Source of the DNA: Acidobacteria bacterium RIFCSPLOWO2_12_FULL_67_14b
GTDB lineage: Bacteria > Acidobacteriota > Vicinamibacteria > Vicinamibacterales > UBA2999
Direction of reading: 5' to 3'
Length of the DNA: 45,069 nt
Assembly: GCA_001768615.1 (NCBI GenBank)
Contig: MELE01000126.1
Span: 1 to 45,069 of the forward strand
Part shown: piece after piece, positions 4,579 to 36,748 of the stretch
Position numbering within the stretch: the first letter of the stretch is position 1
Layout: each line of letters starts with the position of its first letter
Made by a program: the position numbers and the translations under genes
The notes under the pieces: model-generated
Told to the model about the DNA's origin: nothing
Databases searched by the model: none
Seen by the model: only the letters and a program-made list of their open reading frames with translations

Positions 4579-4674
4579 GGAAGTGAACGGGGCCCGGTGG
4601 CCCTCCCGGTCTTCAAAATCGGTCGCTGCCTCCTTGCGGGGCAGGCTGGGTTCGACTCCCAGGCGCTTCCGCCA
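4579..4674 (+). tRNA. selC: tRNA-Sec, anticodon UCA
   Basis: A 96-base selenocysteine tRNA. The extended acceptor stem begins GGAAGTG and pairs with CGCTTCC before discriminator G and an encoded CCA. The D arm is six base pairs (GGGGCC/GGCCCT) with a four-base loop. The anticodon arm CCGGT-CTTCAAA-ATCGG places TCA at 4613-4615. The long variable arm has a CTGCC/GGCAG stem, and the T arm is CTGGG-TTCGACT-CCCAG. The long variable arm, six-pair D stem and UCA anticodon together are diagnostic for selC. It implies that SelA, SelB and SelD are encoded elsewhere; none is in this window. Confidence 0.96.
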
Positions 4675-29125: not shown

Positions 29126-29620
29126 GTGGCCGCGCGCAGGCTCGAAATCGTCGTCGCGCTCGTCGTCGTGGTGTTCGATCAGATCACCAAGGCGCTGGTG
29201 CGGCCCGCGCTGGCGCTGCACGACAGCATCGAGGTGATCCCGGGGTTGGTCGACCTCACGCGCGTGCATAACACGGGCGCGGCGTTCGGCCTGCTGAACA
29301 GCGTCGAGTTCCCGTTCAAGACGGTGGTGCTGTCGCTTGTCGCCCTCGTCGCGCTGGGCGGCGTCGCGTGGTACGCTGCTACTGTGCCGCTCGGCGACCG
29401 GCTCGCGCGGATCGGCATTGCCGGCGTGCTCGGGGGCGCCATCGGCAACCTGATCGACCGATCGACCATCGGCTACGTGCTGGACTTTGTCGACGCCTAC
29501 TGGAACGGCTGGCACTTCTGGGCCTTCAACGTGGCCGACGCCGCGATCACGGTGGGCGTGATCCTGATGATTCTCGATATTCTTGGGCTGGGACGACGCC
29601 GTGCATCCAATCCTGTTTAG
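29126..29620 (+). CDS. lspA: Lipoprotein signal peptidase (signal peptidase II)
   Basis: A 164-residue inner-membrane aspartyl protease that removes signal peptides from diacylglyceryl-modified prolipoproteins. It has four predicted helices, VVFDQITKALV, HNTGAAFGLL, GNLIDR, the YVLDFVD segment and FNVADAAI with the conserved aspartates of the family. The start is GTG at 29126, two bases after the ileS stop. The end overlaps lgt by 20 bases. Confidence 0.96.
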   Translation: MAARRLEIVVALVVVVFDQITKALVRPALALHDSIEVIPGLVDLTRVHNTGAAFGLLNSVEFPFKTVVLSLVALVALGGVAWYAATVPLGDRLARIGIAGVLGGAIGNLIDRSTIGYVLDFVDAYWNGWHFWAFNVADAAITVGVILMILDILGLGRRRASNPV

Positions 29621-30425
29621 CGCTGGACCGATCACCATTTACTCGTATGGCGTGCTGCTGGCCGCGGCCTACCTGCTGGGCCTGTGGCTGGCCGTCAGGC
29701 GCGCGCGCGCCGCCGGCGTCGACGGCAACAAGGTCATGGACCTGTTGATCTGGGTGATCATCGCGGCCCTGGTCGGCGCCAAGGCGCTGCTGTTCATCGT
29801 CGACTTCCGGCACTTCACGAGCAGCTGGCAGGAGTTCACGACGCTGCTGCGGTCGGGCGGCGTGTTCTACGGCGGCCTGATCGCGGCGATCGCCGTCTGC
29901 ATCTACCAGTTGCGGAAGCATCGCCTGCCGTTGTGGGCTTCCGGCGACCTGTTTGCGCCCGGCATCGCGCTCGGCTACATGGTCGGGCGCCTGGGCTGCC
30001 TGCTGGCGGGCTGCTGTTACGGCAAGCCGACGGACGTGGCGTGGGCCATCACGTTCACGGACCCGGTGGCCAACTTCAACGTCGGCACGCCGCTGAACGT
30101 GGCGCTGCACCCGACGCAGCTCTACGAGTCGGCGGCCGGCCTCGTGATTCTCGTGGCGCTCCTGCTGATCGAGAAGCGGCCGGGCCACTTTGCGGGCCGC
30201 ACGTTCTGGAGCTTTGCGTTCCTCTACGCCGTGCTGCGCTTCGTGATCGAGTTCTTCCGCGGCGACGATCGCGGGCTGGTGCTGAACGCGCTGTCGACGT
30301 CGCAGTTCATCTCGGTGGTGCTCGTGCCGCTCAGCCTGTTCATGCTGTGGTACCTGGGCCGGCCCGAGCGCCCGGAGGCGCCCGACACCTCCGCGCGCGG
30401 CCCCCGGAAACCGCGGTTTGCATAG
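29601..30425 (+). CDS. lgt: Prolipoprotein diacylglyceryl transferase
   Basis: A 274-residue membrane enzyme that attaches diacylglycerol from phosphatidylglycerol to the lipobox cysteine. The Lgt signature is GRLGCLLAGCCYGKPTD (from R130), with HPTQLYES and RFVIEFFRGDDRG further on. The start is GTG at 29601 (VHPILFSAGPITIYSYG), matching the family N-terminus; a TTG at 29583 is less likely. It overlaps lspA. A second Lgt-like domain occurs in the fusion protein at 33840-35753. Confidence 0.96.
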   Translation: MHPILFSAGPITIYSYGVLLAAAYLLGLWLAVRRARAAGVDGNKVMDLLIWVIIAALVGAKALLFIVDFRHFTSSWQEFTTLLRSGGVFYGGLIAAIAVCIYQLRKHRLPLWASGDLFAPGIALGYMVGRLGCLLAGCCYGKPTDVAWAITFTDPVANFNVGTPLNVALHPTQLYESAAGLVILVALLLIEKRPGHFAGRTFWSFAFLYAVLRFVIEFFRGDDRGLVLNALSTSQFISVVLVPLSLFMLWYLGRPERPEAPDTSARGPRKPRFA

Positions 30426-32317: not shown

Positions 32318-33031
32318 ATGGATAGGCGCGCGTTTCTCACGGTGGGCGCCGTGGGCGCTGTGGGCCTGCTGCACGGCAAGGCGAGCGCCCGGACGCGCGC
32401 GCAGGACACAATCCCGTACGGACAAAGCCGTCTTGGCGTCTCGGACGACCGGGACGGCACCCTGTACGTACCAAAGAGCTACAAGCCGGGCGTGCCGATG
32501 CCGGTGATGATGATGCTGCACGGCTTCGCCGGCACCGGCGACGGCGTGCGCGGCATGTTCCCGCTGGCCGAAGAGTTCGGCATCATCATGATCGCCCCCG
32601 AATCCCGCGGCCTGACGTGGGGCCGTTCCGTTCCCGGGTTCGACGACGACGTGCGGTATCTCGGACCGGCGTACCGCCACGTCGCCGGCATGCTGGATCT
32701 GGATCCCGAACGCCACGCGCTCGGCGGCGTCTCCGACGGCGCCGGCTACGCCCTGTCGATGGGCCTGGCCTACGGCAACGTCTGGAACCATCTGATCGTC
32801 TTCATGGGCGGCCAGATGATCCCCTTCCGGAATCAAGGCAAGCCGAAGATCTTCATGGCGCACGGCATCGACGACACGCAGATGCCGATCGACAAGACGG
32901 CCCGCAAGTACGTGCCGCAGCTGAAGTCTGAGGGCTACGACGTGACGTATCACGAATACAAAGGTGGCCACCGCGTGCCGCCCGGAGAAATTCGCGAGGC
33001 GTTCCAGTGGTTCGTCGGGAAGAAGGCGTAG
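32318..33031 (+). CDS. Tat-exported alpha/beta hydrolase (esterase or PHB-depolymerase-like)
   Basis: A 237-residue alpha/beta hydrolase with a twin-arginine leader (MDRRAFLTVGAVGAVG). The fold markers are MMMLHGFAGTGDG (oxyanion region), the nucleophile elbow GGVSDGAG with S139, aspartate D185 or D186 in HGIDDTQMP, and histidine H218 in YKGGHRVP. It resembles phospholipase/carboxylesterase and polyhydroxybutyrate-depolymerase-like enzymes. The substrate is unknown. It is the first gene of the cluster leading to the lipid-enzyme fusion. Confidence 0.85.
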   Translation: MDRRAFLTVGAVGAVGLLHGKASARTRAQDTIPYGQSRLGVSDDRDGTLYVPKSYKPGVPMPVMMMLHGFAGTGDGVRGMFPLAEEFGIIMIAPESRGLTWGRSVPGFDDDVRYLGPAYRHVAGMLDLDPERHALGGVSDGAGYALSMGLAYGNVWNHLIVFMGGQMIPFRNQGKPKIFMAHGIDDTQMPIDKTARKYVPQLKSEGYDVTYHEYKGGHRVPPGEIREAFQWFVGKKA

Positions 33032-33818
33032 CATCGCGCCTTTCACGCTCAGCAAGTGGTACTTCGACTGCGTGGCCCCCGACGGCCGCGTGGTCGTCGG
33101 GTATTGGGCGTCGCTCGCGTACCGCCGTCTCGCGTTCACCTGGCAGAACGTCGTTCTTTACCAGTCAGGTGAGCCGCCCGCCCGCCGATCGAGCCTCGCG
33201 CCGTCGCCCCCGCCCGACGTCGGCGCCGGCGCGATCACATGGCGCGCGCCGCCGTTGGGCTGCGTGATCGACGTCACGTCGCGGCAGCGGCCGATCGAGG
33301 CGCGACTGCTCGACGACAGTACCGGCGTCATCGAGTGGCGCGCCGAAGCCCCGGCCGCCGTCGTCTCTGTGGAGTTGTCTGGATTCCCGCCCGTGAAGGG
33401 CCCAGGATACGCCGAGCGCATGCTCCTCACGGTGCCTCCGTGGCGCCTGCCCATTCGCGAGCTTCGCTGGGGCCGCTGGCTCGACGCGGTCCCGAACCGC
33501 TCCGTCGTGTGGATTGACTGGCGCGGCGAGTCCGAGCGCACTTGGGTGTTCGTTGACGGAAAGACGTCGGCCCCCGCCGTCGTGACGGACGAAGGCGTGT
33601 CGGCCGGAGCCGTGAACGTCGTGGTCGGCGAGCACCACGTGCTCGAGACGCTGGCGTTCTCGCAGATCGCCGCAACGATTCCGTCTCTCCAGGCCGTTGT
33701 GCCGAAGGCCTTCCTCGCACTCCGCCAGACCCGGTGGTGCAGCAACGGCACGCTTCAGGAAGGAAACGCCGCGCCGCTCTGCGGCCGGGCGATCCACGAA
33801 GTGGTCGTGTTCCGGTGA
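32964..33818 (+). CDS. CrtC/AttH-like lipocalin-fold protein
   Basis: A protein of up to 284 residues. The recognisable part begins FTLSKWYFDCVAPDGRVVVGYWASL and includes GPGYAERMLLTVPPWRLPIRELRWGRW and VVWIDWRG, words that resemble hydroxyneurosporene synthase (carotenoid 1,2-hydratase, CrtC) and AttH proteins. No carotenoid genes are nearby, so an activity on another isoprenoid or lipid is as likely. The start is unclear: the only ATG (32964) lies 68 bases inside the hydrolase gene and adds an odd Arg/Ser-rich leader, while no ATG, GTG or TTG lies just before the conserved part. Confidence 0.65.
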   Translation: MATACRPEKFARRSSGSSGRRRSIAPFTLSKWYFDCVAPDGRVVVGYWASLAYRRLAFTWQNVVLYQSGEPPARRSSLAPSPPPDVGAGAITWRAPPLGCVIDVTSRQRPIEARLLDDSTGVIEWRAEAPAAVVSVELSGFPPVKGPGYAERMLLTVPPWRLPIRELRWGRWLDAVPNRSVVWIDWRGESERTWVFVDGKTSAPAVVTDEGVSAGAVNVVVGEHHVLETLAFSQIAATIPSLQAVVPKAFLALRQTRWCSNGTLQEGNAAPLCGRAIHEVVVFR

Positions 33819-33839: not shown

Positions 33840-35753
33840 ATGAGCGCGCGCCTGGCGTACGCAGCTCTCTTCGTGCTGGCGCTGCCGGCGCTGCTCGTCG
33901 CATGGGCGATCCGCCTCGACACGGTGCTTGCACTCCCGGCATACGGATCGGTCGCACCTGGTGCGGGAGTGGCGATTGCCGGCCTGGCGCTGATGGCGGC
34001 GGCGACCAGAGATCTGTGGGTCCACGGGCGCGGCCTGCCGGCCAGCCCGTTTCCGCCGGAGCGGCTCGTCACGCGCGGCGTCTACCGCATCATCGCGCAC
34101 CCCATCTATCTCGGTGCGGTGCTCGTGGCGCTCGGCGTTTCGCTCGCCACGCGGTCGGCCGCAGGGTTGTGGATCGTCTCGCCGGTGCTCGCACTTGCGG
34201 TGGCCGCGTTCGTCATCGGCTTCGAGAGCGACTCCACGCGCCGCCGCTACGGCGCCCTGCCGGCGCCGCTGCTGAGACTGCCAGACGACTCGGACGCGCC
34301 GCCATCGGCCATCGAGCGCGCCGCCGTCTACGTGCTCGTGTTCCTGCCCTGGCTCGTTCTCTACATGGGGGTCGAGTATCTCGGAGTGCCGCCGGACGCG
34401 CGATCGACGTACTTCGCGTGGGACCGGTCGCTGCCGGTCATCCCGTGGACCGAGGCGGTCTACGCGGCGACCTATCCGTTCGTGTCCCTGGCGCCGCTCG
34501 CCGCCGCACGGAAGAGCGAACTGCGCCGCTATGCGCTCGGCGGGTTGTGGGCCACCGCGATCATCATTCCGCTCTACCTCCTGCTCCCCCTGGTGGCGCC
34601 GGCGAAGCCGGTTCCGGGCGAGGGACTTTGGCAAACGCTCATGACGTGGGAGCGGCAATACGATCGGCCGGTGACAGCCTTCCCCGCATTTCACGTCGTG
34701 TGGTCGTGTCTTGCGGCGCAGCTCTACACCGCGAGATGGCCGCGGCTGCGGTGGCTCGGGTGGCCGATCGTGGCGGCGCTGGCGGCAAGCTGCGTGACAA
34801 CGGGAATGCACGCCGCGGCCGACGTCGTCGCGGGTTTCGCGCTGTACGCTCTCGTCGCCTGTCGTGAGGCGGTCTGGCGGCGCGTGTGCGATGGAGCGGA
34901 GCACCTCGCGAATTCGTGGCGAGAGACCCGCATCGGCCCCGTTCGCCTGATGAGCCACGGGATCTACGCAGGCCTGGGCGTCACGGTGGGGCTGCTCATC
35001 GCCGGGGCGCTCGCCGGGAGCCAGAACCTCGGCTGGCTCGTCGCGATGGCGCTTCTGGCGGGGGTGCTCGGCGCCGGCCTGTGGGCACAGGTCGTGGAAG
35101 GGTCGCCGCAACTGCTGCGGCCGTTCGGCTACTTCGGTGCACCACTCACCGCCATCGTGGTGGCCCTCGTCGCCGGTTTCGTCGATGCGGACGCCTGGCT
35201 CATTCTCGTGGCGTTCGGCACGGGCGGTTGCTTCGCGCAAGCGATCGGGCGCATTCGCTGCCTGGTGCAGGGGTGCTGCCACGGCCGCGAGGCCCCCGAC
35301 GCGCTCGGGATCCGATACCGGCACCCGATGTCGCGAGTGGTGCGCTTGAGCGCGTTGGGCGGTCTGCCCCTGCATCCGACACCCCTCTACTCGATGGTCT
35401 GGATGGTGCTCGTCGGTCTTGTGCTCCTCCGCCTCTGGGCGCTCGCCGCGCCACTCCAGTTCATCGCGGGCACGTACTTCATCCTCGTCGGCCTGGGCCG
35501 CTTCGTCGAAGAACATTTCCGGGGCGAGCCGCAGACGTCGGTGATCGCCGGCCTGCGGCTTTACCAGTGGTTGGCGATCGCATTCGTGGCCGGTGGCGCC
35601 ATGCTGACGACGCTGGGGCCGACGGCGGCACCGGCGGCGGCGGCCTTCGATCCGCGCATCCTGCCGATCGCGCTGATCGTGGGCGCAATACACTACGTCG
35701 CCTATGGGGTGGACCTTCCGGGGTCGAACCGCAGGTATTCACGACTGCGGTGA
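33840..35753 (+). CDS. Three-domain membrane fusion: ICMT/PEMT-like, PAP2-like and Lgt-like
   Basis: A 637-residue polytopic membrane protein. Residues 1-150 resemble isoprenylcysteine/phospholipid methyltransferases: RGVYRIIAHPIYLG (79-92) and E129 in FVIGFESDSTRRRYG, the SAM-binding end. Residues 160-350 resemble PAP2/inositol-phosphoceramide-synthase phosphotransferases: YDRPVTAFPAFHVVWS (R276, H285) and TTGMHAAADVVAG (H324, D328). Residues 380-600 resemble Lgt: GRIRCLVQGCCHGRE (from G470), HPTPLY (512-517) and GRFVEEHFRGEPQTS (553-567). All three active-site sets look intact, although the Lgt signature is diverged. It starts 21 bases after the CrtC-like gene. A combined lipid headgroup or protein-lipidation role is inferred; no single known protein has this plan to my knowledge. 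Confidence 0.85.
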   Translation: MSARLAYAALFVLALPALLVAWAIRLDTVLALPAYGSVAPGAGVAIAGLALMAAATRDLWVHGRGLPASPFPPERLVTRGVYRIIAHPIYLGAVLVALGVSLATRSAAGLWIVSPVLALAVAAFVIGFESDSTRRRYGALPAPLLRLPDDSDAPPSAIERAAVYVLVFLPWLVLYMGVEYLGVPPDARSTYFAWDRSLPVIPWTEAVYAATYPFVSLAPLAAARKSELRRYALGGLWATAIIIPLYLLLPLVAPAKPVPGEGLWQTLMTWERQYDRPVTAFPAFHVVWSCLAAQLYTARWPRLRWLGWPIVAALAASCVTTGMHAAADVVAGFALYALVACREAVWRRVCDGAEHLANSWRETRIGPVRLMSHGIYAGLGVTVGLLIAGALAGSQNLGWLVAMALLAGVLGAGLWAQVVEGSPQLLRPFGYFGAPLTAIVVALVAGFVDADAWLILVAFGTGGCFAQAIGRIRCLVQGCCHGREAPDALGIRYRHPMSRVVRLSALGGLPLHPTPLYSMVWMVLVGLVLLRLWALAAPLQFIAGTYFILVGLGRFVEEHFRGEPQTSVIAGLRLYQWLAIAFVAGGAMLTTLGPTAAPAAAAFDPRILPIALIVGAIHYVAYGVDLPGSNRRYSRLR

Positions 35754-35837: not shown

Positions 35838-36065
35838 GTGCTGCACCGTGTCTTCGCCATTCTCGGTGTGTTGATCGCTGCGTCCGGGATCTTGATGGCT
35901 CTCTGGTTCCTCCAGGGGTCCGAGCAGGCAAGGGGGTCAGGGCCATTTGCCGGGCTCGGAGAACTGGTTGTCGCGGCGATGTCGATCGTCATCGCCGCAT
36001 TTGGTGCATGTCTCTTCGGCATCTGGGCGTTCGCCAGACTCGCAGGGTTCGGCCGCGGTAGATGA
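35838..36065 (+). CDS. Small membrane protein with two helices
   Basis: About 75 residues from a GTG start (VLHRVFAILGVLIAASGILMALWFLQG), with a second helix LVVAAMSIVIAAFGACLFGIWAFARLAG. A TTG at 35793 would give 90 residues. I recognise no family. Its stop overlaps the start of the downstream methyltransferase as ATGA, which is evidence that it is translated. It may be an accessory subunit of the neighbouring membrane enzyme. Confidence 0.6.
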   Translation: MLHRVFAILGVLIAASGILMALWFLQGSEQARGSGPFAGLGELVVAAMSIVIAAFGACLFGIWAFARLAGFGRGR

Positions 36066-36748
36066 ACGTCCCGGGAAGGGGTGCCATGCCAGGGTCTGGA
36101 AGCTTCTACGAACGTCGCGTCTTCCCGTGGCTCAACGACAAGCTGACCGCCGGTCCGGAGCTCATGCGGATTCGCGCGGACGCCCTGGCCGCAGCCACCG
36201 GCCGCGTCCTCGAGATTGGATTCGGCAGCGGCCCGAACCTGGCGCACTATCCGGCCGCCGTCGAGTCCCTTGTCGCGATCGAGCCGAATGTTGGGATGCA
36301 GGCCCGTGCGGCGGCGCACATCCGGCAGTCCAGAATCCCGGTCACGACGGTCGTCGGCCGGGCGGAAACGCTGCCCGTTCCGGATCGCAGCATCGACACC
36401 GCGGTGAGCACCCTGACGCTCTGCACCGTGTCGGATCCCGGACGCACGCTCGCCGAGCTGCGCCGCGTGCTGCGCGACGATGGGCGGCTGATCGTGATGG
36501 AACACGGGTTATCCGAAGAACCCGGCGTCGCCCGCTGGCAAGGGCGGCTGAATGGCCTTCAGAACGTCGTGGCGTGCGGGTGCAACCTCAACCGGCCGAT
36601 TGCCGACCTGGTCGAGCGCGCCGGGTTTCGATTCGAGACTCTTCGGAAGTTCTACGTCCCGAACGTCCCGCGAACCCATGGATGGTTCAGCGTGGGCGTC
36701 GCCCGGCCACTGACCGCCGAACCTGGCGCTGGGGCGAGGGAGATTTGA
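36062..36748 (+). CDS. Class I SAM-dependent methyltransferase (UbiE/phospholipid methyltransferase-like)
   Basis: A 228-residue methyltransferase. SAM motif I is VLEIGFGSGPNLAHYP (49-64), followed by VAIEPNVGM, TVVGRAETLPVPDRSIDTAVSTLTLCTVSDP and LRRVLRDDGRLIVMEHG. The layout YERRVFPWLNDKLTAG and the cysteine pair in VVACGCNLNRP resemble the METTL7/PmtA-like lipid methyltransferases. It is coupled to the small membrane protein. The last codons (GAREI) and the TGA lie in a fragment of the 235-bp element, so the C-terminus was probably altered by an insertion. Confidence 0.88.
   Translation: MNVPGRGAMPGSGSFYERRVFPWLNDKLTAGPELMRIRADALAAATGRVLEIGFGSGPNLAHYPAAVESLVAIEPNVGMQARAAAHIRQSRIPVTTVVGRAETLPVPDRSIDTAVSTLTLCTVSDPGRTLAELRRVLRDDGRLIVMEHGLSEEPGVARWQGRLNGLQNVVACGCNLNRPIADLVERAGFRFETLRKFYVPNVPRTHGWFSVGVARPLTAEPGAGAREI

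Follow-up and report, generated by a model that had tools for sequence, protein, structure and literature searches.

Lgt is usually regarded as a lipoprotein-making enzyme. In a study of the E. coli protein (PMC4728403), the N-terminus of Lgt is part of its periplasmic head, and Lgt itself follows the positive-inside rule. Here we describe a gene in which an Lgt-like domain (PF01790; E. coli structure 5azb) lies behind two other domains, one resembling the PEMT/ICMT family (PF04191) and one of the PAP2_3 type found in Aur1/inositol phosphorylceramide synthase and the sphingomyelin-synthase-related protein. The gene is located on contig MELE01000126.1 (45,069 nucleotides; the window, by which we mean this whole stretch) of Acidobacteria bacterium RIFCSPLOWO2_12_FULL_67_14b, a soil-type bacterium, and directly follows a gene whose product matches the AttH/CrtC/Diels-Alderase double lipocalins in a fold search. 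Each domain is of a known kind; new to us are their combination, the accompanying partner and the inverted placement predicted for the Lgt-like domain. Our literature searches, which covered few of the subscription journals, found no paper on this architecture or on such Lgt relatives, and the available part of the lipocone paper (eLife, PMC12419801) has no bearing on the fusion.

The fusion is a single open reading frame of 637 residues on the forward strand with an ATG start and no internal stops. Pfam identifies (i) PEMT at residues 43–138 (E = 3.9e-11, 43.7 bits against a cut-off of 25), (ii) PAP2_3 (PF14378) at residues 204–340 (E = 1.3e-13, 51.6 bits against 27) and (iii) LGT at residues 364–590 (E = 3.9e-19, 69.4 bits against 24.9). 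The union of three lipid-enzyme domains in one membrane protein, put forward in an original prediction made from the DNA alone, is thus confirmed, with all three profiles above their cut-offs. The same prediction called the last domain a second, diverged Lgt-like domain, which is supported, and an ordinary lgt gene does lie elsewhere in the genome. In the fold search, residues 145–342 match Aur1/sphingomyelin-synthase-type phosphotransferases and residues 343–595 match E. coli Lgt (5azb); the PEMT-like third has no match in that search, which itself reports this part as barely tested. A PDB sequence search with P0001 returned photolyases alone (E = 0.7), and a PDB search with a profile of four fusions returned nothing.

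The fusion is not peculiar to this genome. The window fusion (ORF 33840–35753) was aligned with 11 homologues from Acidobacteriota and Gemmatimonadota (alignment A6), of which that from G432 is shortened; residue counts below refer to these 12 sequences in window numbering, and L and G denote the loci and genomes compared. Domain order, which the original prediction had proposed to look for in other genomes, is maintained in all 11 homologues, and the possibility it raised that homologues would split at frameshifts is not borne out, as the fusion forms one frame in these 11. Single scans at E ≤ 1e-3 detect LGT and PEMT in all 12 proteins and PAP2_3 in 11. The LGT-like third is the best conserved, with a mean identity of 49.2% and 44 invariant positions of 258, compared with 46.9% and 12 of 144 for the PEMT-like third and 42.6% and 21 of 198 for PAP2. 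For every third in four pairs, NG86 ratios of nonsynonymous to synonymous substitution (dN/dS) are 0.12–0.36, values that are rough because dS is 0.8–1.3.

The upstream partner adjoins the fusion at 11 of the 12 loci, and at the twelfth the contig is cut at that point. It contains no strongly hydrophobic segment and is soluble, and it looks cytosolic. Its resemblance to the AttH/CrtC-type lipocalins (2ich; CghA, Fsa2 and Phm7; 25-phosphosteroid lyase) extends to only 8–13% identity, and unlike them it is found beside a three-domain fusion. Four partner-type proteins (from the window, L012, L024 and L079) gave no Pfam match at E ≤ 0.1, and three gave none in NCBIfam. A partner-type gene without a fusion occurs at L110 8689–9558 (G591), with N bases (masked or unknown) just downstream. 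The coordinates of the locus are collected in the table.

Table. Features of the fusion locus and the comparison gene, in window coordinates
Feature	Coordinates	Strand	Remarks
AttH/CrtC-like double-lipocalin partner	32964..33818	+	Directly upstream of fusion; conserved core 33036-33815; true start uncertain
Three-domain membrane protein, 637 residues	33840..35753	+	About 18 predicted transmembrane helices; both ends predicted cytosolic
PEMT/ICMT-like domain, residues 1-144	33840..34271	+	Four predicted helices; S-adenosylmethionine (SAM)-site signatures partly lost; from Pfam and residue table
PAP2_3 domain, Aur1/sphingomyelin-synthase type, residues 145-342	34272..34865	+	H285, H324, D328
LGT-like domain, residues 343-600	34866..35639	+	R471, R554, E558, R561, G482 kept; predicted inverted in membrane
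Predicted extra helix (607-623) and basic tail, residues 601-637	35640..35750	+	Past the Lgt-matching part
Canonical lgt of the same genome, comparison gene	29583..30425	+	LGT E 1.2e-58

Repeats flanking the fusion gene are short and weak. Elsewhere in the window, a Class I methyltransferase gene (Methyltransf_11) lies downstream of the fusion at 36062–36748, and ARAGORN calls a selenocysteine tRNA gene at 4579–4674.

We propose, with slightly less than an even chance of being right, that the fusion and its partner form a two-gene unit that produces or modifies a specialised membrane lipid by the scheme set out below. One alternative, in line with the original prediction, is that a head group or diacylglyceryl is first transferred and methylation in the PEMT-like third then follows. 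The PEMT profile is matched in all 12 fusions, Y82, P88, Y90, G92 and E129 are invariant, and the related PEMT domains of G203 and G736, described below, retain both the RHP and EE signatures. In the fusions, however, the histidine of the HP motif (H87, in AHPIYLG) is retained in only six of the 12 sequences, being replaced by Asp in four, Asn in one and Gln in one, and none of the 12 retains the second Glu of the EE pair. We take the HP histidine and the EE pair to be the SAM site of PEMT/ICMT enzymes. These losses make methylation doubtful, and we consider this alternative unlikely.

The same erosion could be read as a sign that the protein is catalytically dead or devoted to transport, serving the partner as a lipid-binding scaffold or flippase, and several Lgt residues are indeed replaced. 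This is improbable given the state of the other two thirds, in which the PAP2 histidines and the Lgt arginine/glutamate core are invariant and the LGT-like third is the best conserved of the three. In PAP2, H285 and H324 are present in all 12 fusions and D328 is kept in 11, with Glu in the twelfth, whereas R276, which the original prediction had placed with them in one set, is Arg in only one sequence. C318 lies at the Arg position of SRx5H, which we take to be the usual PAP2 motif, and is Cys in 11 fusions and Thr in one. The profile, the fold, the two histidines and the aspartate place the domain in the Aur1/sphingomyelin-synthase type, from whose known members it differs in this Arg and in sitting between two other domains. 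In the LGT-like third, R427, R471, R473, R499, R554, E557, E558, R561, G482 and the cysteines C474, C479 and C480 are invariant. R143, R239, E243, R246 and G154 of E. coli Lgt align with R471, R554, E558, R561 and G482.

Other positions of E. coli Lgt differ in the fusion. N146 and E151 are both Cys, a feature shared with the ordinary Lgt of the window (GCC type), and the other replacements are Ser for E202, Val for Y235 in the window fusion and Phe or Tyr for H103. In the E. coli work (PMC4728403), R143 binds phosphatidylglycerol, no mutant of R239, E243 or R246 complements, Y235 mutants fail except for the partly active Y235T, and activity is retained in E202Q.

A third alternative is that the protein acts on lipoproteins as an additional, specialised Lgt, with the other domains accessory. 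The LGT profile match, the Lgt fold and the retained arginine core favor this idea. Against it, the fusion falls far below both curated Lgt cut-offs (59 of 334 bits for NF000778 and 32.5 of 118.9 bits for TIGR00544), although the window's own Lgt, which passes TIGR00544 with 132 bits, also misses NF000778 (187.4 of 334 bits). All 11 tested genomes carrying the unit or a remnant of it also possess a canonical Lgt, the segment between the second and third transmembrane helices of the LGT-like third is shorter than in most aligned Lgts, and the partner looks cytosolic. The distribution of charge in the loops also argues against a lipoprotein enzyme, and with these points taken together we regard one as very unlikely.

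Orientation was examined from the transmembrane helices, 17 of which come from the model and one of which (203–222) was added by inspection. With these helices, each of the 12 fusions has 27–35 lysines and arginines in inner loops and 6–10 in outer loops. Within the LGT-like third, the loops equivalent to periplasmic ones of Lgt have 5–11 of these residues and those equivalent to cytosolic ones have 1–4, a reversed bias seen in all 12. Alignment of nine of the fusions with 16 canonical Lgts gives 4–9 and 8–12 for the corresponding loops of the Lgts, with 15 proteins normal and one tied. When the three conserved arginines of the loops that are periplasmic in Lgt are discounted, these loops retain 2–8 lysines and arginines, which still exceeds the other side in 10 of 12 fusions and equals it in L082 and L083. 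For these counts, the 12 fusions represent one evolutionary event. The helix count leads to the same arrangement: if the PAP2 histidines face outward, the PAP2 domain ends in the cytosol and the LGT-like third starts there, in contrast to the periplasmic N-terminus of E. coli Lgt. Since charge bias and helix parity agree, the LGT-like third is predicted to be inverted, its active site probably facing the cytoplasm. Such an inversion would disfavor a second lipoprotein Lgt and favor a specialised lipid. The helices as called allow only one of the PAP2 and LGT domains to sit in its usual orientation, so the opposite arrangement, with LGT normal and PAP2 facing inward, must also be weighed. The loop charges favor PAP2 outward and LGT inward, although 2–4 lysines and arginines occur in the long PAP2 loop C1, which is an outer loop in the prediction; we give the opposite arrangement a slim chance. 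A misassembly or chance gene fusion, for which only the draft state of the genome (258 contigs) speaks, has a negligible probability and is refuted by the 11 homologues from other genomes, which share the domain order and also the partner wherever that part of the locus can be seen.

Homologues were sampled by one pattern scan of genome contigs, a plasmid search and sets of Acidobacteriota and Gemmatimonadota genomes. The pattern scan gave 29 matches, three of which were confirmed as full-length: L001 (60%), L002 (63%) and L003 (40%). Seven of 396 Acidobacteriota genomes matched at E ≤ 1e-20, comprising intact fusions (G000, G042, G258 and G309), a decayed copy (G333), a PEMT-PAP2 protein without LGT (G203) and an LGT-only match (G009). 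Seven of 162 genomes from the window's order matched (G000, G397, G456, G309, G432, G439 and the decayed G333); the G432 fusion has 569 residues from its first ATG, a short N-terminus and one TGA inside the profile match, and that of G439 is truncated by the contig end. Among 249 Gemmatimonadota, the phylum of L002, 52 matched at E ≤ 1e-15: G516, G581, G631 and G739 are intact, G557 is split over two contigs, G647, G685 and G691 are partial, G547 carries a single-frame homologue (L080 6050–7348) whose PAP2 catalytic core has been lost and which has no upstream partner, and the remaining 43 are of PEMT, PAP2 or LGT type only. The exceptions to the one-frame fusion are thus the decayed G333, G547 without its PAP2 core and several copies cut by contig ends.

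The unit is distributed patchily and shows decay. Remnants of the fusion or of its partner, decayed or incomplete, occur at L030 (G333), L022 (G098) and G245:C6:50553-50765, which suggests that the unit has been lost repeatedly. In the tree, the window fusion, L001 and L026 group with the four Gemmatimonadota fusions (99/99) and not with those from the same family and order as the window. We do not claim transfer, because four of the nine internal branches are left open and a single origin followed by losses may also explain the tree. A plasmid search with the fusion gave no matches.

Two related clusters occur in other genomes. In G203 (L089 5475–10701), an AttH-like gene alignable with the partner, a PEMT-PAP2_3 protein (L012/L089), a pyridoxal-phosphate (PLP) decarboxylase of the diaminopimelate/ornithine type and a gene that by eye is aldehyde-dehydrogenase-like are consecutive. 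The PEMT-PAP2_3 protein shares the domain order and the AttH-like neighbor of the fusion, but differs in lacking LGT, in keeping RHP and EE and in its decarboxylase and aldehyde-dehydrogenase-like neighbors. The row is possibly an undescribed lipid or amine cluster. In G736 (L079 3995–9926), an AttH-like gene, a separate PAP2_3 protein, a similar PLP decarboxylase and a PEMT-acyltransferase fusion occur together; ATP-binding cassette (ABC) transporter genes were also noted there by eye. PEMT, PAP2_3 and an AttH-like protein thus form a module that exists also without LGT. No related cluster was found in G737 or G694, and L006, a second PEMT-type match in the window's own genome, showed no partner beside it. 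Searches of plasmids gave five weak matches to the G203 PEMT-PAP2 protein, spanning the methyltransferase part or less, and none to the G203 AttH-like protein. Separately, at L087 3923–5990 in G042, the gene for a lone diverged Lgt-like protein of 245 residues (LGT E = 7e-24) overlaps a neighbor that we take, by eye, to resemble the radical-SAM MJ0619/tetraether-synthase group.

A lipid-synthesis unit fits better than a lipoprotein enzyme because the curated cut-offs are missed, the tested genomes have a canonical Lgt as well, and neither the predicted orientation nor the cytosolic partner suits lipoproteins. In the scheme we propose, the cytosolic AttH/CrtC-like partner would handle or modify a hydrophobic acceptor. 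At the inner leaflet, the cytoplasm-facing LGT-like domain, with its phospholipid-binding arginine core kept, would move diacylglyceryl from phosphatidylglycerol or a similar donor to a small non-protein acceptor supplied via the partner. On the outer face, the Aur1/sphingomyelin-synthase-type PAP2 domain would transfer or remove a phospho-head group through a phospho-histidine, and the SAM chemistry of the PEMT-like third would probably be lost or changed. The three domains with their order and conservation, the linked partner, the two fold matches, the retained and lost residues and the charge pattern are computational results, whereas orientation, catalysis, donor, acceptor and the sequence of steps are inferred. 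A likely role in lipid metabolism, as first suggested, is supported. The original prediction is partly supported as a whole: the acylation it mentioned is not what Lgt carries out, which is diacylglyceryl transfer, and neither the AttH-like partner nor the reversed charge bias formed part of it. In a bolder and somewhat unlikely version, an Lgt-type domain flipped by fusion behind PAP2 would work on the cytoplasmic leaflet, passing diacylglyceryl to a non-protein acceptor that the AttH/CrtC-like enzyme has made ready and yielding an undescribed ether- or thioether-linked polar lipid of Acidobacteriota and Gemmatimonadota.

Members of these two phyla are abundant soil bacteria whose membrane lipids have been explained only in part. 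If the proposal is correct, the Lgt fold would have been reused in lipid synthesis, through a conserved relative that is joined to a head-group transferase, linked with a lipocalin-type partner and probably turned over in the membrane. The fusion and its partner would then constitute a compact two-gene unit that is open to expression and assay.
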